From Acidobacteriota bacterium (GTDB taxonomy: Bacteria > Acidobacteriota > Blastocatellia > RBC074): a stretch of DNA of 35,119 nt. Position numbers and translations under genes: made by a program. Where the stretch lies: positions 1 to 35,119 of the forward strand of contig JACPYM010000098.1 in assembly GCA_016196035.1 (NCBI GenBank), read 5' to 3'. Positions 6,450-15,503 of this stretch are shown here, in pieces (the stretch's first letter is position 1; the number at the start of each line of letters is the position of its first letter). The notes beneath the pieces are model-generated. The model ran no database searches. It saw only the letters and a list, made by a program, of their open reading frames with translations, and was not told the origin of the DNA.

Positions 6450-7303
6450 TTCGGATATCGAAACCAAATTTCCGCCACTGCTTCCTCCGCACTCAACAAA
6501 AAGCCATTCGGAAATGGCGGCAACGGATTGGACGCAATGATTGCGCGTTCAGCGGCGAAATTGACCTGCTCAATGGGTGAGCGGCGCTTGATGTAACTGC
6601 CCGCGACGCGCCCGCCCGCCAGCGACAGAATGCGACCATCGCGCGCAATCCGCAACTGAATCACGACGAAATGCTGTCCCGCTGTATCGTAGCCGCCAGG
6701 CGGATTGTAATTGCGGCTCAAGATCATCTGAATGCGCCGCCCATACTCCGAACCGCCCGGCACGCCAGACGCGCCTGCGCCCACATTCGCAGTGGCGACA
6801 CCCACGCCGTTCGTCAGCGCTGGTGTTGGGATGCCAGCAGAACGACCGACCTCGACATTGGTATTGGCCGAACTGCCGCGCAACGGCTGTTTGGTCACAG
6901 GCTGTTCGTTCTGACTGGCTGTCGGGCGTTCAGTTTTTTCGACCTTCTCTTTAACCGGTTTGGGCGCCTTGGTCGTGGAGGGAAGCACCTCAGCATCCGG
7001 CGCGACTTTCGGTTTGGCCGTCTCGACCTCGACATTATTGGCGGGCGTATTCTCAGTGCCCGCGAATGAAACCGCTTTGGGTTTGGTGAGGCCGAATTGG
7101 CTTAGCTGTGCGGCATCCACGACGCCGACTTCAATGGCCGTGCCGCCATTTTCGCCCGCTCCTGCCGCGACAATCTGCGTTGTCAGCGGTTGGCGGAAGT
7201 ACCAGAAACAAAAGCCGAGCACGCACAGATGCAGCAAGCCTGAGAGCATCGCTCCCCATTGCACGCTTTGCTGATTTGTTTCGACTTTTGCTATCACACC
7301 CAT
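6446..7303 (-). CDS. tolA: TolA/TonB-like energy transducer
   Basis: The 285-aa protein has one N-terminal membrane helix (about residues 18-38) and a long Pro/Lys/Glu-rich periplasmic region (about 85-150). Its C-terminal domain (about 190-285) looks like TonB/TolA, with FVVIQLRIARDGRILSLAG and a final ISSLPPFP-like element (ASNPLPPFPNGF). It would transmit proton-motive force from TolQR to TolB and Pal. Its place after tolR in the operon argues for TolA, although the C-terminal domain is closer to TonB in appearance, so the symbol is by position. It overlaps the next small gene by 4 nt and starts 18 bp after tolR. Confidence 0.8.
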   Translation of the reverse strand: MGVIAKVETNQQSVQWGAMLSGLLHLCVLGFCFWYFRQPLTTQIVAAGAGENGGTAIEVGVVDAAQLSQFGLTKPKAVSFAGTENTPANNVEVETAKPKVAPDAEVLPSTTKAPKPVKEKVEKTERPTASQNEQPVTKQPLRGSSANTNVEVGRSAGIPTPALTNGVGVATANVGAGASGVPGGSEYGRRIQMILSRNYNPPGGYDTAGQHFVVIQLRIARDGRILSLAGGRVAGSYIKRRSPIEQVNFAAERAIIASNPLPPFPNGFLLSAEEAVAEIWFRYPK

Positions 7304-7321
7304 TACGTCGTGATTACTTCT

Positions 7322-7753
7322 TCACTTCTTCGCAGTCGGCTCCGTCACCAGACTCACATTCGCCTGCACGCGTTTGGCCTGATCCAGCACATAGGCGATC
7401 ACGCGATACGGCGTTTCGCCATCGCCGCGCAGATAGACGCGCCGTTCCTTCGATTGCGCCAACCGTTCGCCTAGTAGTTTTTGCAGATCGTTGACATTGA
7501 TCGCTTTCTGTTCGTCTTGCCCGCTCAAATAAATTGCGCCTTCTTTATCCACCGAAATGATGAGCACATCCGGCGTGGCTTCCTTGGCCTGGGCCTCGCG
7601 CGTCTTCGGCAAATTGACCTGAATGCCGGATTGCAGGATCGGCGCGGTGACCATGAAAATCACCAGCAGCACGAGCATGACGTCTACGAGCGGCGTGACG
7701 TTAATCTCGGCCAGCGCGGTTTGGGTGCGTCCGTTGCGTGTGGAAAATGCCAT
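7322..7753 (-). CDS. tolR: TolR/ExbD-family biopolymer transporter
   Basis: The 143-aa protein has the ExbD/TolR signature ALAEINVTPLVDVMLVLLVI, with the membrane Asp of PLVDVMLV that takes part in proton use. One membrane helix (about residues 18-38) is followed by a periplasmic domain ending in QAKRVQANVSLVTEPTAKK. The ATG at 7753 is chosen because it lies 1 nt after the tolQ stop codon; an upstream ATG at 7813 would add 20 residues encoded by the heptamer repeat. With TolQ it forms the inner-membrane motor. Confidence 0.92.
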   Translation of the reverse strand: MAFSTRNGRTQTALAEINVTPLVDVMLVLLVIFMVTAPILQSGIQVNLPKTREAQAKEATPDVLIISVDKEGAIYLSGQDEQKAINVNDLQKLLGERLAQSKERRVYLRGDGETPYRVIAYVLDQAKRVQANVSLVTEPTAKK

Positions 7754-7754
7754 A

Positions 7755-8489
7755 TCAATTGCGGATTGCAGATTGCGGATTGCGGATTGTCGTTTCAGCA
7801 GCCTCCCGCTCAATTAGATTGAGTAGGCGCAAACTGAAACTGTCCATCTCCGCCGCAAAAACCTTAATGCGATTGAGATAGTGATTGTAGGCCAGCACCG
7901 CCGGAACTGCTGCCGCGATGCCTGCCGCTGTAGCGATGAGGGCTTCGGCAATGCCGGGTGCGACGGCCTGAATCGAAGTCGTCGTGCTAGTGCTCAGCCC
8001 TTCAAACGCGATGATGATACCGACGACCGTTCCGAATAATCCGATAAAAGGCGCGGCACTCGCGGTTGAAGCCAGCCAGCCCAATGAACGTTCTAGCCGC
8101 GTCGTCTCGTCAATCGCCGTGCTTTGCAGAGCGCGCTGCACGGCCTCCAGGCTCAGCGTGGGTTGCCGGCGCAATTCTTCTTCTGCCGCGTTGCACATAG
8201 CAGTCAGGGGGCTGTCGGTCAACGCCGCCACGCTGGTGCGCAAGTCCGATAACCGCTGGCTCTGCCCAAAGACCTGTAAAAACGTGCGGGTTTGTTGCTG
8301 CGCCTTTCGCGTGGCGATCTCTTTGGCGATGATGATTGCCCAGGAAATCAGCGAAAACACGAGCAGCAACAACAAGACGAATTTGGCGATGGGACTGGAA
8401 CGGAAAAGCAGATCAACTAGGTTGCCGGTGCGGGGGACGATGGGTTCTTGTAAAAGTAGCAATAAAGGCCAAGCCGTATGCGCGCTCAA
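7755..8489 (-). CDS. tolQ: TolQ/ExbB-family motor protein
   Basis: This 244-aa inner-membrane protein is the first gene of the tol-pal operon. It shows three membrane segments: about residues 34-54, a second around APFIGLFGTVVGIIIAFEGL, and a third around EALIATAAGIAAAVPAVLAY. The last two carry the conserved proton-channel region of ExbB/TolQ. The start is TTG, preceded by AAGGA about 4 nt away; no ATG is available nearby. The last ten or so residues ([11 protein letters not shown]) are encoded by a GATTGCG heptamer array and differ from what the family needs, so the array seems to have run into the 3' end of the gene. Confidence 0.9.
   Translation of the reverse strand: MSAHTAWPLLLLLQEPIVPRTGNLVDLLFRSSPIAKFVLLLLLVFSLISWAIIIAKEIATRKAQQQTRTFLQVFGQSQRLSDLRTSVAALTDSPLTAMCNAAEEELRRQPTLSLEAVQRALQSTAIDETTRLERSLGWLASTASAAPFIGLFGTVVGIIIAFEGLSTSTTTSIQAVAPGIAEALIATAAGIAAAVPAVLAYNHYLNRIKVFAAEMDSFSLRLLNLIEREAAETTIRNPQSAIRN
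7761..7788. repeat. heptamer tandem array, GCGGATT family (inside tolQ 3' end)
   Basis: Four units (GCGGATT, GCAGATT, GCGGATT, GCGGATT) lie in the last codons of tolQ, just before tolR. The unit is a rotated reverse complement of the CCGCAAT array at 21550-21591, so both belong to one family. Confidence 0.7.
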
Positions 8490-8787
8490 TGATCCTTGCT
8501 CCCTTTTCGTGATGAAAAATTGGTGTTGGATTGCTTGTTGAATTGCGAACGTATGCTAGCATGTGCCCCGACCCGGTTCAAGAAAGTCATTCTGGCGTAA
8601 GGATTTCGAGTTCAGCTTTTTGGTTTGTGGCGCACGGCGCGGCAGACTTCGAGGCAGCTTCCGGGAATTCGCGCCATGCCTCGAAAGAAAATCCTGCCGC
8701 AAACATTACTCGCTCCGCTCAACCTGACGCCGCTGGGCTTTCTCACCAGACTATCCCTAACAATCTTTGACAAAGGAGCGTGTCTCT
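8490..8787. other. divergent intergenic region tolQ / exported protein gene
   Basis: These 298 bp separate the tol-pal operon from the divergent gene at 8788 and should hold both promoters. I could not pick a promoter pair with confidence. Short frames through the region have no ribosome-binding sites or recognisable content. Confidence 0.4.
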
Positions 8788-9811: not shown

Positions 9812-11254
<1,443 letters not shown>

Positions 11255-11508: not shown

Positions 11509-12339
11509 CTAAAGGGTGGGCCAAGGGCGGTTCAGCAAGGCGTCAACGACTTCGCCCGTTTCGCCACGCACGCCTTTCAGAACGGGTGCTTTCAGGACGA
11601 CTTGCTGCAAGGTGGCGAGTGCTTTGGCGGGGTTGCGTTGCGCTGAGACAGTGTTGGCAAGAATGGAAAGTAACCCTTGTCCTGCCGGAATCTGTTTTGG
11701 CCGCCAACGGGTGCCTGCTTTGTATTCGGTGAGTAGGACTAGATCAACTGGCAACGGTTTTGTACCGACGATGCCGCCAAAGGTTTCAATCGGGTACTTT
11801 TCTTGTCGCGCTTGGGGATTGTTGCGGACGCCGATAGGGACCGGGTAAGGATGAACGCGCCCTTGCATATCCAACACTGCGTACTCGTCTGAGTAATAAG
11901 TTGCCCCCGCTTTTACCAACTCTCGGACTAAAGTGCTCTTGCCAGCATGTGTTCTACCAGGAATAACAATCGTTCGCCCCTTCCAATTAACAGCACCGGC
12001 ATGCACAAAGACCCGGTTAGAGGCGTATTCCGCGATGTGAAGGTTCAAGGTTGATTCAAAAATATCAAGCACCTCTTCTATGTCCAAGGAGCGTGCCAAC
12101 TGCACAATTCCTCCGTACAGCAGATGAAACTGACGCGTATTGAATTGTTTATTAGTGTTACCGATTTTCAGTGAAACCAAAGTCTCAACAAAATGGTTCC
12201 TGGCTTGTTTCCAACCATAAGGCAATCGTTTATTTAGTTCTTCAAGTATGTCAGGCTGATTAGTTCTAACGCCTACCCGCACGCCGTATGCGGTAAATGA
12301 AAATCCGGCCACCCAACCTAGGCGGTCAAGCTTTTTCAT
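11509..12339 (-). CDS. HPr kinase-like P-loop protein
   Basis: The 276-aa protein resembles the catalytic domain of HPr kinase/phosphorylase. It shows FVHAGAV (112-118), the P-loop GRTHAGKST (128-136), and YSDEYAVLD (149-157) in the place of the HprK acidic motif. It lacks the N-terminal HprK domain. Proteins of this type occur beside PqqD-like proteins and in lasso peptide clusters, where some phosphorylate the precursor peptide (established for paeninodin-type kinases). Here it follows the PqqD-knottin gene by 178 bp on the same strand and ends before a terminator, so the two are probably one operon. Its substrate is likely the PqqD-domain partner or its tail, by inference. No clear ribosome-binding site precedes the ATG. 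Base composition is more AT-rich than the flanking genes. Confidence 0.78.
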   Translation of the reverse strand: MKKLDRLGWVAGFSFTAYGVRVGVRTNQPDILEELNKRLPYGWKQARNHFVETLVSLKIGNTNKQFNTRQFHLLYGGIVQLARSLDIEEVLDIFESTLNLHIAEYASNRVFVHAGAVNWKGRTIVIPGRTHAGKSTLVRELVKAGATYYSDEYAVLDMQGRVHPYPVPIGVRNNPQARQEKYPIETFGGIVGTKPLPVDLVLLTEYKAGTRWRPKQIPAGQGLLSILANTVSAQRNPAKALATLQQVVLKAPVLKGVRGETGEVVDALLNRPWPTL

Positions 12340-12517
12340 TCAGGTGGAAGGAGCTTTCAGTAAAGGTAGTGTTGATCCCATTTGAGGCAAATGAAGAGAT
12401 CGTCATAAGTTGTTATGAAAATCATTCAGGCAGAAAGAATTTCATAAAACACCCGTCTGACGGCTACATGCAATCAAATTCTGGAATGATCTGATTACGG
12501 AGCAACTTCAAAATTGT

Positions 12518-13009
12518 TCAAGCATTACATTGATTAGTAACCAAATTGCAGCTATTTGAGCAACAATCTGAGTTAGCAAAACAAAGCGCGCCAGTGCCCC
12601 CGCAAAGACTACCTGCCGCAGCGGCTGGTGGAACTAACGCTGAAGCCACCAACGGCAACACAATCCCCGCCACCTTTCCAAACCGCTTTGCCGCCTCGCG
12701 TCGCGTAATCAAATTGCCTGGCGACTGCACGCGCCCCTCCAACAACCGATTCCGCTCCAATTGCTGCAACGCCAGCCAAACGACTTGCTCGTCAACCTCG
12801 GTATGCAATTCCTGCGCGATCAAGCCGCGCAATTGACTCACCGTGGTCTTGCCATCGCAATTCTTCCACACCAAAGTAGCGATGCGATTCAGGCTATGCG
12901 CCTTGTTCCGCTCTGTGTCATAGATGACCAACTCATCATTGAGCGGCGAAAAAAGTAATCCTTCCCGCCGGGCGCGCGGCAACTGTGACGTAAGGGTGGT
13001 CGTAGGCAT
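12518..13009 (-). CDS. PqqD-domain protein with Tat-like segment and knottin-like tail
   Basis: The 163-aa product has three parts. Residues about 15-95 form a PqqD-like (RRE) domain: FSPLNDELVIYDTE, AHSLNRIATLVW, then a winged-helix pattern ending NRLLEG. Residues 102-132 look like an internal twin-arginine signal: TRREAAKRFGKVAG, then a hydrophobic stretch and an Ala-rich AxA site. The last 30 residues hold six cysteines (136, 143, 149, 150, 154, 161) with spacing C-x6-C-x5-CC-x3-C-x6-C, the inhibitor-cystine-knot order. PqqD domains bind leader peptides in RiPP systems; here leader-binder and possible peptide are one chain. GGAGAG precedes the start by about 5 nt. No maturase or transporter gene is nearby. 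PqqD assignment is firm; the Tat and knottin readings are from motif. Confidence 0.8.
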   Translation of the reverse strand: MPTTTLTSQLPRARREGLLFSPLNDELVIYDTERNKAHSLNRIATLVWKNCDGKTTVSQLRGLIAQELHTEVDEQVVWLALQQLERNRLLEGRVQSPGNLITRREAAKRFGKVAGIVLPLVASALVPPAAAAGSLCGGTGALCFANSDCCSNSCNLVTNQCNA

Positions 13010-13181
13010 TGTTCTCTCCTGGTTAGGTAAATCAGGGACATCACTGCGGCGCTTAGCTCGGACGTAATTTCCTGATTTGGTTGCGCTCAGATTTTACACT
13101 TGCGCGGCTTAACAATAGCGGATGCTCGTTGTAGTCGTTTTGATGTTGTGGGAGGCACTCCAACAACTTGGGATGTCGTTC

Positions 13182-13220
13182 CGGTGGAAACTGCCGGTAG
13201 AAACTGTCGGTAGAAACTGG
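13182..13220. repeat. 13-bp tandem repeat, three units
   Basis: Three units follow directly: CGGTGGAAACTGC, CGGTAGAAACTGT, CGGTAGAAACTGG. They sit in the 722-bp gene-free stretch 13010-13731 between the PqqD-domain gene and mutM. A short reverse frame (13053-13313) crosses them but shows no sign of being a gene. Confidence 0.6.
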
Positions 13221-13434
13221 TTGATTGTTTATCGAGGTGGCGCCTACCACGCGCCTTATCAACTTGCCAGTTAAATCATTAATCAAACACGGGCAGTCTA
13301 TGCACAGAGGCAAAGCGTGTCAACCAAGAATTACAAGCGCTTGCCGCGACTGGTTCAGCCAGCTACTCTTTGGCGCAGTCTGTAAAACCATTTATCAATA
13401 CACGGGCAACCAAGTTCTTTGGCATTGTGTGCCT

Positions 13435-13680
13435 CACCTTGTAGTAACGAATTTATTCGTTACGCGTGCGGGTTTGAACGACTAGAGCGGTTTTCACATC
13501 GGTGTATGGGAAAAGTCGCGCAGCGGGACAGTACCGCGCGCGTGAGCAAGCGGCGCGTCAAGCTTACGCCATTGGCTGAGTCGCCCAGGTGCCGCTTGCT
13601 TACGCGCGCGGTACTGTCCCGGCACAACGCGCTCCCGTAAACGCAATTGCAAACCGCTCTAAAGTGGTTACTACAAGGTG
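13435..13680. repeat. nested palindromic element (MITE-like)
   Basis: Three pairs of arms share one centre. The outer pair CACCTTGTAGTAAC (13435-13448) and its exact complement (13667-13680) enclose TAGAGCGGTTT (13483-13493) with its complement (13651-13661). These enclose a 30-bp arm (13525-13554) matching 13591-13620 with one mismatch. A separate small palindrome GTAACGAATTTATTCGTTAC lies at 13444-13463. No open frame of note lies inside and no target-site duplication is evident. It occupies the end of the gene-free stretch 13010-13731 just before mutM, and looks like a non-autonomous mobile or dispersed repeat. Confidence 0.65.
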
Positions 13681-13731
13681 AAGCTGTAACTGCCAGGAAA
13701 CTCAGTTGCCGGTGTAATCAAGAGGAGCTTT

Positions 13732-14565
13732 ATGCCTGAACTGCCTGAAGTCGAAATGGTCGCGCGTCATCTGCGCGCCTTGGTCACTGGCCGCACAATT
13801 GCGCAGGCCAAGTTGCTCTGGCCGCGTACCGCGCCGGAGCTGTCCACACGGCAATTTGCGGCGGGACTAAAAGGCGCGCGGGTTGAGGCCGTGACGCGGC
13901 GGGGCAAATATATCTTGGTGAATTTGCACAACGGCCGCAGCTTATTGGTGCATTTGCGCATGACGGGACGGTTCTTTTATTTGGACAGCCGGGCTGAAGC
14001 GCCCCTGCATACGCGCGCGGTTTTTCATCTGGACAATCAGAAGAAATTGCTCTTTCACGATGTGCGCAAGTTCGGCAAATTGCACCTTGTGCCGACTCGG
14101 AAATTGCACGAGAGCGCCCAACTCGCGCCGCTTGCACCCGAACCCTTCAGTGATGAATTTAGCCTGGAATACTTATTCGAGACACTGCGGGACAGCAGTC
14201 AGCAAATCAAGCTGGCGCTGCTGGATCAGACGAAGGTGTTGGGCTTGGGCAATATCTACGCCGCCGAAGCCCTGCATCGGGCGGGCGTGAATCCGAAATT
14301 GCCGACGCGCAAACTCTCCAAACCGCGCGCGGCCTTGTTGCATCAAGAGATCGTGAATGTGTTGAATGAGGCGATTGCCAATGAAAGCACGCTCAATACC
14401 GATCCCGAAGCCTTGGATGCCAGTTATACCGGCGGGACGTATGAAGCGCTGACGCGTGTGTATGAACGCGAAGGTCTCCCTTGCAAAGCTTGCGGCACGC
14501 TGATTCGGCGCATCGTGCAAGGGCAGCGGTCAACTTATTTTTGTCCTCAATGTCAGCGACGCTGA
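13732..14565 (+). CDS. mutM: formamidopyrimidine-DNA glycosylase
   Basis: The 277-aa protein is MutM/Fpg, which removes 8-oxoguanine and nicks the abasic site. Visible features are the N-terminal catalytic Pro2-Glu3 (MPELPEVEMV), Lys59 in RRGKY, the helix-two-turn-helix segment LGLGNIYAAEALHRAGVNP, and a C-terminal zinc finger with cysteines 251, 254, 271 and 274. Arg266 of the finger is in place. The length is the family norm, and all key residues are intact. AGAGGAG lies just before the start. It is alone on its strand, with a palindromic repeat right after it. Confidence 0.96.
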   Translation: MPELPEVEMVARHLRALVTGRTIAQAKLLWPRTAPELSTRQFAAGLKGARVEAVTRRGKYILVNLHNGRSLLVHLRMTGRFFYLDSRAEAPLHTRAVFHLDNQKKLLFHDVRKFGKLHLVPTRKLHESAQLAPLAPEPFSDEFSLEYLFETLRDSSQQIKLALLDQTKVLGLGNIYAAEALHRAGVNPKLPTRKLSKPRAALLHQEIVNVLNEAIANESTLNTDPEALDASYTGGTYEALTRVYEREGLPCKACGTLIRRIVQGQRSTYFCPQCQRR

Positions 14566-14578
14566 TGATCTGCCGACT

Positions 14579-14713
14579 ATAGGACTTACACAGAAGCATT
14601 GCCACAGAGGCACAGAGTCACAGAGGTAAGACTTAAATTCCCAGAAAATCTTCTCTCTCGCTCTGTGTCTCGGTGCCTCTGTGGCAAGGTTTCCGGCTTT
14701 GCGTAAGTCCTAT
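14579..14713. repeat. palindromic dispersed repeat, copy 1
   Basis: Outer arms ATAGGACTTAC (14579-14589) and GTAAGTCCTAT (14703-14713) are exact complements. Inner arms of 26 bp (14600-14625, a CACAGAG-rich motif beginning TGCCACAGAGGCAC, and 14661-14686) match with two mismatches. A related copy lies at 17455-17586. It fills the space between the convergent ends of mutM and the five-haem cytochrome gene. Confidence 0.75.
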
Positions 14714-14714
14714 C

Positions 14715-15503
14715 CTATTTCACACGCGCCGCGAGTTTGTCTTTCAGTTTGGTCGCCTGCAAAAAAACCTGGTCGGCGTTGGCGCGCGAGGCTTTCAAAT
14801 CAAAGCCGTGCCACGCTAGCTTGGCTTGCCGCAAGGTCTTTTCAAACCGCGCGATTTCGGCCTCTTCCGGCGCAAAATTCAAGCGGCGCTTTCGGCCCTC
14901 GGTCACCAGATAGCGCGACCACGCCAAAACTTCATCGGCACGGCTGAAAGCGGCAATCGTATCGCCTGCTTGCTTGGGGACGTTGAGCCATTGCGCGGCT
15001 GGCCCTTTGGCTTGGTGGCAACTGGCGCACAGGTTCGCGGTATCGGGCGCACGATAGATAACGGACGTGGCCATGTGATGGTGGCAGGTTGTGCAACTCG
15101 GTCCGTCGCCCGAGGCGGGCAATTGCTGAAAATGGCGGCTTTGCGTGAACAGCGCCGCAATTTCCTGATGGCAGGCTTGGCAAGTGGCAGGCGCGTTTTT
15201 AGGCGCCAGGGTGCTGGTCGGAAAGCTGGCATTGAGCACGCCTTGATGTGCGGTTTTGAAAACGGTTGCGGCGGGGTCGCCACCGTGGCAACGTTCGCAA
15301 CCGACTTGCGCGCGTGCGTGGGCTGAACCGCGCCATTCGTAAAAATGCGCACTCACAAGCAACGGCTCCATCAGTTTGGCATGGCATACAACGCACTGGT
15401 TGTCGCGCAACGCCGCCAGTTGCGCGGCGGGTTTTCGCTGGGTCGCCATACTCAGCAGCGCTGCCGCCGTTGTCAGCAAAATACTCAGCAAGGCAAGTTT
15501 CAT
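14715..15503 (-). CDS. exported five-haem c-type cytochrome
   Basis: The 262-aa protein has a signal peptide (MKLALLSILLTTAAALL) and five CxxCH haem-binding motifs at residues 37-41, 69-73, 108-112, 137-141 and 159-163. They cluster in the first 165 residues; the C-terminal 95 are helical, charged and haem-free. The spacing recalls cytochrome c554/c3-like multihaem proteins, likely a periplasmic electron carrier; the partner is not apparent. The start at 15503 is set by GGAGGAG 6 nt upstream; a longer open frame to 15935 has no such site and no plausible leader. No other redox genes lie nearby. It is divergent from the UspA gene. Confidence 0.85.
   Translation of the reverse strand: MKLALLSILLTTAAALLSMATQRKPAAQLAALRDNQCVVCHAKLMEPLLVSAHFYEWRGSAHARAQVGCERCHGGDPAATVFKTAHQGVLNASFPTSTLAPKNAPATCQACHQEIAALFTQSRHFQQLPASGDGPSCTTCHHHMATSVIYRAPDTANLCASCHQAKGPAAQWLNVPKQAGDTIAAFSRADEVLAWSRYLVTEGRKRRLNFAPEEAEIARFEKTLRQAKLAWHGFDLKASRANADQVFLQATKLKDKLAARVK

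Follow-up and report, generated by a model that had tools for sequence, protein, structure and literature searches.

We examined a pair of neighboring minus-strand genes in contig JACPYM010000098.1 of an Acidobacteriota bacterium (class Blastocatellia), the whole analyzed stretch of which, 35,119 nucleotides, is called the window here. One gene encodes a 163-aa protein in which three parts follow one another in a single chain: a PqqD domain of the RRE type (recognition element of ribosomally synthesized and post-translationally modified peptides, RiPPs), a twin-arginine translocation (Tat)-type signal segment and a cysteine-rich tail. The other encodes a protein with the predicted fold and the motifs of HprK. 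By sequence comparison, this architecture recurs in a large family with hypervariable tails, mostly even cysteine numbers, an early Ser/Thr in the tail and a linked HprK-like gene with intact kinase motifs. We read its members as RRE-fused, Tat-exported, RiPP-like precursors that would be phosphorylated near the start of the exported passenger and sometimes elaborated further, and we give this reading as a whole slightly better than an even chance. The family, which we refer to as PqqD-Tat-Cys, appears to be undescribed. The features of the pair are as follows.

12518-13009, minus strand: gene of the PqqD-Tat-Cys protein (P0001), 163 aa, from the open reading frame (ORF) call and the Pfam PqqD match
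12734-12985, minus strand: PqqD/RRE domain, residues 9-92, in bbb-aaa order (strands, then helices), from the AlphaFold2 model and matches to solved structures
12614-12706, minus strand: putative Tat-type signal segment, residues 102-132 (TRR ... AxA), from position counts in the family and the RR columns
12521-12613, minus strand: predicted mature passenger, residues 133-163, with six Cys (C-C-CC-C-C) and Ser134 near its start, from the cleavage rule, the model confidence of the tail (predicted local distance difference test, pLDDT) and a weak knottin match
11509-12339, minus strand: gene of the HprK-fold kinase-like protein (P0002), 276 aa, from the ORF call, conserved motifs and the modelled fold
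11466-11441, minus strand: terminator-like hairpin 3' of the HprK-like gene, from a consensus scan, not above chance regionally

Both ORFs lie where a sequence-only reading of this DNA had placed them. The make-up that it gave for the 163-aa chain, a PqqD domain, an RR/hydrophobic segment and a six-Cys tail, is borne out, and the Cys spacing, C136-x6-C143-x5-C149-C150-x3-C154-x6-C161, is exact. Judged by comparison with relatives, a chance reading of this ORF is excluded, because near-full-length homologues, tail included, occur in most relatives searched. A search with the 163-aa protein hit 99 of the 147 genomes from its class (its own included, E <= 0.01), or 89 once ten weak ones are set aside. 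Of 396 genomes drawn from the phylum, 42 matched at E <= 1e-15, including nine from other classes than the window's. A scan of named contigs with 11 relatives yielded 77 loci, some of them on contigs shared with the genome search (e.g., L037 and G020:C24). These loci are mostly from Acidobacteriota, many from Pyrinomonadaceae (class Blastocatellia); other record titles name Gemmatimonadetes, Deltaproteobacteria, Armatimonadetes, Methylomirabilota, Rokuibacteriota, Fraserbacteria, Planctomycetaceae and Aquisphaera insulae JC669, a spread that rests on record titles, which can be wrong for metagenome-assembled genomes.

Two genomes, G076 and G090, carry at least 25 family matches each, as counted among the best 25 of 43 and 44 candidates. 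Part of these match sites was fetched, and in the 29 regions read the copies are scattered, 24 in G076 and 20 plus one fragment in G090. Each of the two genomes has a single full-length kinase match, with an additional partial one in G076 (E 8e-4), and the 18 kb fetched around each kinase gene contained no family copy. In G090, a gene of the NTP_transf_5 family follows the kinase gene.

The N-terminal part of the window protein has the features of an RRE/PqqD domain. Residues 26-75 match Pfam PqqD (PF05402; E 3.3e-9, 37.4 bits against a cut-off of 23.4), and the AlphaFold2 model (pLDDT 87, built from 31 sequences) predicts a winged-helix fold of three strands and three helices in RRE order. 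The closest solved structures to this part are RREs of lasso peptide systems, TbiB1 (5v1v_A; Z 9.6, root-mean-square deviation (rmsd) 2.4, 86 residues aligned) followed by 6jx3_B (Z 9.2, rmsd 2.6, 83 aligned); this comparison barely covered residues beyond 98 and is uninformative on a knottin tail. When the PqqD profile was compared with the sequences of solved structures, the best hit was a PqqD at E 0.18, and no close relative was found. The sequence-only reading depended on the tail lying outside the PqqD fold, and the model, which came without inter-domain error values, agrees with it, predicting a complete PqqD fold and then residues 141-163 as a unit of their own. As a side observation, two Cys within the PqqD domain, in the motifs KAHCLN and CDG, are nearly invariant (C38 in 27 of 31 and C50 in 30 of 31 proteins, L005 numbering); the window protein has Ser in place of the first.

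The segment that follows resembles a Tat signal. The consensus of such signals is S/T-R-R-x-hydrophobic-hydrophobic-K/R, a hydrophobic segment and AxA. In the window protein, Thr102 and Arg103-104 are followed by a hydrophobic stretch ending in PPAAAA; the motif reads TRREAAKRFG, with Ala-Ala where Phe-Leu is usual, and residues 103-113 are modelled as a helix at lower confidence (pLDDT 67-78). All 30 aligned members have both Arg, and in a larger alignment Arg occupies the two columns in 30 and 31 of 31. Besides the two Arg, P121, P129 and three tail Cys (L005 numbering) are invariant in the 30-member alignment. Of 132 family proteins, 125 were parsed into leader, signal and tail; seven were left out, five of them cut, masked or broken and two (L111, and L123 at 6100) just outside the hydrophobicity rule. 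The parser demanded RR, so the presence of RR among the 125 was preset; the rest of the position table also follows the Tat consensus, with [ST] before RR in 105 of 125, [KR] at +5 in 106 of 125 and mostly hydrophobic residues at +3/+4. Ala at -1 with a small or aliphatic residue at -3 precedes the predicted cleavage site in 117 of 125, under a scoring that favors such sites. A TatC gene is present in the window's genome. Export by this signal is, in our judgment, very probable. A lipoprotein was considered and rejected, as no [LVI]-[ASTVI]-[GAS]-C box was seen by eye at the junction of signal and tail in the window protein.

The tails are short and rich in cysteine. Their median length is 39 aa, and Cys makes up 14.2% of tail residues versus 1.6% ahead of the tail. 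At least four Cys are present in 116 of 125 tails, and their number is even in 115, odd in five and zero in five under the second of two cleavage rules; the first rule gives 110 even and 10 odd. The sequence-only reading had asked whether homologues keep the cysteines and the RR motif, and by these counts they largely do. That the tails are disulfide-rich is a prediction that we make with high confidence. The knottin-like character that had been claimed applies to the window tail, which has the six-Cys C-C-CC-C-C order of knottin/inhibitor cystine knot (ICK) peptides, is modelled at a pLDDT of 90-95 over residues 141-163, and gave a single weak knottin match among structures (6px7; E 1.5, probability 0.84, 29 columns). 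It does not extend to the family, and a strict knottin family was rejected: of 56 six-Cys tails, 14 have the C-C-CC-C-C order, 29 have the first two Cys nearly adjacent and 13 show other arrangements, and among the five tails that lack Cys are Ser/Thr/Gly repeats (L094), Pro/Arg repeats (L110) and the short tails of a planctomycete record (L112). Weak matches to Pfam toxin families at E <= 1 were found among 30 members (Conotoxin_I2 in seven, Omega-toxin in four; best 4.9e-5), below the cut-off in the member shown.

Under the family-centered cleavage rule, 121 of 125 passengers have a Ser or Thr no later than their fourth residue, the five Cys-free tails among them. As a control, we took 116 signal peptides from neighboring genes, of which 56% have Ser/Thr in the first four residues. 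The family rule is centered on the family's usual offset and the control's rule is not; under the control's rule, which finds a site in 115 of the 125 proteins, the count is 105 of 115. Independently of any cleavage rule, the alignment column of Ser134 has S or T in 27 of 31 proteins. A Ser/Thr near the passenger start therefore stands, whereas its exact position depends on the cleavage rule. Phosphorylation of a C-terminal Ser, known from paeninodin, does not hold as a general rule, since only seven of 125 proteins end in Ser.

Leader and tail differ sharply in their rate of change. Among 34 close pairs, which were selected for PqqD identity >0.75 and are not independent, mean identity was 0.82 in the PqqD domain, 0.86 in the signal and 0.50 in the tail. 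Across all G076 paralogue pairs, the corresponding values were 0.45, 0.52 and 0.28, with 0.24 for shuffled tails. The pooled ratio of nonsynonymous to synonymous change (pN/pS) was 0.13 in the leader and 0.38 in the tail, for 13 pairs from near the top of the 34-pair list. As far as these alignments tell, the tail evolves much faster than the leader while keeping an even number of Cys, a combination of conserved leader and hypervariable core of the RiPP type.

The partner protein has the hallmarks of an HprK-type enzyme. Its model (pLDDT 94.7) predicts an HprK/PEPCK fold, with structural matches to HprK/P (1kkl_C; Z 13.5, rmsd 2.9, 132 residues aligned) and to PEPCK (Z up to 13.7, at larger rmsd). 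All 33 aligned sequences share H113, G133, K134, S150 and D151 and have S/T at 135 and E/D at 152, so that the P-loop Lys, the His and the Asp-Asp/Glu pair expected of such a kinase are present. These residues resemble the motif H, G, K, S, D-D of lasso kinases, as given in the available part of PMC10368454, and activity on a peptide is proposed by analogy with those lasso relatives. At the level of sequence the protein is distant from curated families: the nearest NCBIfam kinase model, HprK_rel_A (TIGR04352), scores 66.1 bits against a cut-off of 200, the Pfam Hpr_kinase_C match is below cut-off (E 0.16), and the best hit of the kinase profile among the sequences of solved structures is an unrelated protein (E 0.066), with HprK/P 1ko7 at 0.67.

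The association of this gene with the PqqD protein holds across the family. Kinase matches were found in 98 of 147 genomes (the window's own included), and 91 genomes have both the kinase and the PqqD protein (Fisher p 4e-21, treating genomes as independent). For adjacency we used 76 of the 77 loci, L113 having no PqqD ORF. In 51 of them the kinase gene lies immediately upstream and in five immediately downstream; one locus has both, so that 55 count as adjacent, which upholds the earlier expectation of an HprK-like gene as a conserved neighbor. It lies elsewhere in three loci, in one of which (L070) it overlaps the PqqD ORF as called.

A second partner is common in relatives. A neighbor cluster identified as NTP_transf_5 (PF14907 by its representative) occurs in 57 of 77 loci, and a profile search found such an ORF in 60 of 77; genome-wide, 94 of the 147 genomes have an NTP_transf_5 match at E <= 1e-10, which in five is weak and partial. 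The window's genome was searched for the usual type and has no match at E <= 1e-10, although it holds four general PF14907 matches elsewhere. Because NTP_transf_5, found near most loci, has no such match in the window genome, the window pair is, as far as sequence searches reach, a two-gene variant in the less common gene order. A third type of gene, a 2-oxoglutarate (2OG)-Fe(II) oxygenase (PF13640 by one representative), lies within about 80 bases downstream of six G076 copies, and G131, of the same genus as G076, has a relative of it close behind one copy. Counted by presence and not by adjacency, an oxygenase match was found in 12 of 14 genomes. These oxygenase genes, seen in L123, L124, L128 and L129 (G076) and at G131:C172:5358-5957, directly follow a sub-branch of the PqqD-Tat-Cys genes. 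The statement that the system has no maturase is consequently right beside the window pair and wrong for the family, given NTP_transf_5 near 60 of 77 loci and 2OG oxygenase genes after some copies. Beside the scattered copies, no other neighbor family, most of them unnamed, occurs in more than 5 of 30 regions.

Taken together, these observations are consistent with the following scheme. The 163-aa protein would be a self-guiding precursor with its recognition element in cis: the N-terminal PqqD/RRE domain would stay in the cytoplasm and dock the HprK-like kinase, and in most relatives NTP_transf_5 as well. The kinase would then phosphorylate the passenger, most likely at the conserved Ser/Thr near its start (Ser134 in the window protein), and we regard a phosphate on the passenger as about an even proposition. 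This residue is proposed because the lasso kinase BsfK phosphorylates core Ser3, in a reaction accelerated by the RRE BsfB1 (PMC10368454, in the part available), and because an early Ser/Thr is kept in the family. Where present, NTP_transf_5 probably adds a sugar or nucleotide to this phosphate; in the available text on pseudomycoidin (PMC8498205), a nucleotidyltransferase attaches one or two hexoses to the phosphorylated peptide. The 2OG oxygenase, where present, may hydroxylate the passenger. Export through Tat and a signal peptidase cut at AxA would release a small peptide, usually disulfide-stapled and of fast-changing sequence, which, once secreted, probably serves in competition or at the cell surface. 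More tentatively, with a likelihood that we place somewhat short of even, the family may be a new class of secreted bacterial peptides with a built-in recognition element, whose scattered precursors, up to dozens in one genome, would share a single kinase, joined in most genomes by a nucleotidyltransferase. They would receive a phosphate or phosphosugar on a Ser/Thr immediately behind the cleavage site and leave through Tat as disulfide-stapled, rapidly diversifying mini-proteins, a conotoxin-like library in soil bacteria of several phyla.

Several findings weigh against this interpretation. The kinase gene was not found in the fetched flank of 18 of 76 loci (four of them near a contig end), and the usual NTP_transf_5 has no match in the window genome and only a weak partial one in G076. 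A folded domain ahead of a Tat signal is unusual, and the generic Tat model TIGR01409, which is not among the NCBIfam matches of the window protein, matches 8 of 30 members weakly at E <= 0.5. The position of the early Ser/Thr depends on the cut: at +2 it is found in 66% under the family rule, 31% under the control's rule and 24% in the control. Ser/Thr directly before the first tail Cys occurs in 75% of proteins outside G076 and G090 and in 40% inside. Two loci, L109 and L111, have large or unusual passengers with no kinase nearby. Finally, the tail pN/pS is below 1; therefore, its rapid change could reflect relaxed constraint, and positive selection is not shown by the ratio alone.

The main rival places the action of the kinase on the leader. 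In this explanation, the protein phosphorylates the PqqD or signal part or serves as an ATP-binding switch, the RRE, kinase and nucleotidyltransferase act together in export or quality control, like Tat-signal chaperones, and the passengers are plain secreted disulfide-rich proteins. It would account for the conservation of the PqqD domain and signal, for a Ser/Thr inside the signal that is itself conserved (position 123, S/T in 29 of 31 aligned proteins), and for passengers so diverse that they include Cys-free and large ones, such as those of 460 and 407 aa at L109. Against it, L109 has no kinase nearby. Moreover, Ser/Thr in the first four passenger residues is kept above the signal-peptide background, the nearest characterized kinase relatives act on peptides, and the oxygenase genes beside some copies suggest tailoring of the passenger. 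We consider an export switch on the leader unlikely, at roughly one chance in four. Another possibility is that the tail decorates the cell surface, fixed there by a hydrophobic segment that acts as an uncleaved N-in anchor or by a link between the phospho-Ser/Thr and exopolysaccharide. Loci of the Pyrinomonadaceae type do lie near polysaccharide genes (cluster representatives Epimerase_2 in 28 of 77 loci and Glycos_transf_4 in 33 of 77), and NTP_transf_5 acting on a phosphate could form a phosphodiester link. However, an anchor sits poorly with the cleavage-site residues counted above, under their favorable scoring; the scattered copies share no polysaccharide locus, with the neighbor-family limit and unnamed families already given; and the window pair lies between atpD and fpg, as read by eye. 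Display or anchoring is improbable in our view.

It is also conceivable that the pair is a degenerate lasso or HPr-rel-A cassette, whose PqqD protein would simply bind the leader of a precursor that lies unseen elsewhere, the Cys tail being an unrelated accretion. The gene trio is that of lasso clusters with a kinase and a nucleotidyltransferase, and the PqqD fold is closest to lasso RREs. Against this stand the recurrence of even-Cys tails in contigs of several phyla and the tails that the scattered copies bring of their own. A search for a neighboring precursor that the PqqD domain might bind gave no fitting ORF family of at least 70 aa, and among short ORF families (20-69 aa, within 2 kb) none recurs in more than 2 of 77 loci. 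No lasso cyclase or B2 peptidase was seen by eye beside the window pair, and no such family is common among the recurring neighbors; an asparagine-synthetase-like cluster, judged by its start, occurs in 3 of 77 loci only. This explanation is already disfavored, and we regard it as very improbable. In comparison with these alternatives, precursors phosphorylated on the passenger remain our preferred interpretation, and the sequence-only reading is partly supported, with phosphorylation, export and disulfides being what we infer.

Several known systems share parts of this arrangement. Lasso clusters with K, N and B1 genes (paeninodin, pseudomycoidin and bsf of Bradymonas, in the available parts of the sources) likewise bring together RRE, HprK-like kinase and nucleotidyltransferase genes. 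Here, in contrast, the RRE is fused to the precursor, the core is Cys-rich, no cyclase or leader-peptidase family is common, few proteins (7 of 125) end in Ser, and a Tat-type signal takes the place of the ABC transporter. PqqD/HprK pairs are curated in NCBIfam as the "HPr-rel-A system" (kinase A, TIGR04352; PqqD_rel_X, TIGR04353), a similar pairing of a kinase-like and a PqqD-like protein for which no paper was found in the searched literature under that name or the model numbers. The cut-offs of both models are not reached: the window kinase scores 66 versus 200 bits and, on TIGR04353, the relative L037 scores 17.6 versus 35; 15 of 30 members match TIGR04353 weakly, and no match is listed for the window protein at E <= 1. 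The TIGR04353 model, with 74 positions, is also too short to include a signal and passenger. Nitrile-hydratase-like and Nif11 leader peptides combine a folded conserved leader, a variable core and many precursors per enzyme, but these leaders are not RREs and no Tat signal follows them. ICK peptides such as conotoxins and omega-atracotoxin share the Cys order of the window tail; the present family is, however, bacterial and RRE-led, and keeps that order in 14 of 56 six-Cys tails only. A further parallel is offered by the RRE-dependent precursors of the DUF2063/DUF2282 type, which we take to be the bufferins. Bufferins are treated in PMC12452194, as far as its available text goes. According to the accessible part of PMC12710340, a signal-bearing precursor is paired there with an RRE protein, as separate proteins and with a Sec signal, whereas here one chain carries both, with a Tat-type signal and a kinase-like enzyme.

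In the literature searched, which leaves most subscription journals outside, a fusion of PqqD/RRE, Tat signal and Cys-rich tail is not described, only related but different systems, and the portions available of the RRE surveys PMC7470986 and PMC12710340 do not mention one. The latter, a 2025 survey, reports in its accessible text that 21% of PF05402 proteins exceed the length expected of a discrete RRE and have no other Pfam annotation; PqqD-Tat-Cys proteins would belong to that group. If our interpretation is correct, it brings in a class of Tat-exported peptides with many precursors to each kinase, a source of disulfide-rich scaffolds and a search rule: an RRE followed by an RR signal, AxA and, shortly after, a Ser/Thr. 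The likely substrate lies in the same chain as the recognition domain; therefore, the function of the kinase is directly testable with two or three genes.

The remaining observations concern the surroundings of the pair and of its relatives. In the window, the HprK-like gene is downstream of the pqqD-like gene after a gap of 178 bases, and the flanking atpD and fpg, read by eye, are both unrelated to the pair. The terminator at which the pair had been said to end is present as a hairpin of 11 pairs and a T tract, about 40 nt past the HprK-like stop codon; such hairpins are, however, not above chance in the region (two consensus hairpins seen versus 4.3 expected from shuffles), where chance hits are common. 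At L109, the PqqD-Tat module occurs in the 460- and 407-aa proteins (7219-8601 and 9965-11188) without a Cys-rich tail, and no kinase gene is found in 18.6 kb. Seven of the 77 loci (L037, L038, L039, L045, L046, L087 and L096) have a Peptidase_C25 gene (gingipain-type, by the L037 representative, 11782-14847) close to the PqqD gene. In many loci (e.g., L044, L048-L058 and L063-L086), the cassette sits between polysaccharide genes (Epimerase_2, Glycos_transf_4) and, for example, a TsaD-family gene.

The window genome also holds a second pair of PqqD-fusion and HprK-like genes (L150, contig C88, 8059-8484 and 6930-8090, both on the minus strand). Its PqqD fusion has 141 aa, ends in ...LPPYEAPQLKLSNALTSVVLSGSAIVGPSAITGG and is, by eye, without a Tat signal. 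Among eight genomes, the HprK-like neighbor of this fusion was profile-detected in the window genome only. The tail of the fusion is conserved in seven further genomes of its family and has a YxxP motif that resembles RRE recognition sequences, as that motif is given in the available part of PMC12710340. Upstream of the pqqD gene in the window, at 13483-13661, lies a palindromic interspersed repeat of about 160 bp, with arms of 31 nt at 97% identity. It has at least 80 matches in the genome (both strands counted, among the best 40 of 417 candidates scored), and one copy, at C88:28553-28712, sits just upstream of the second pair.

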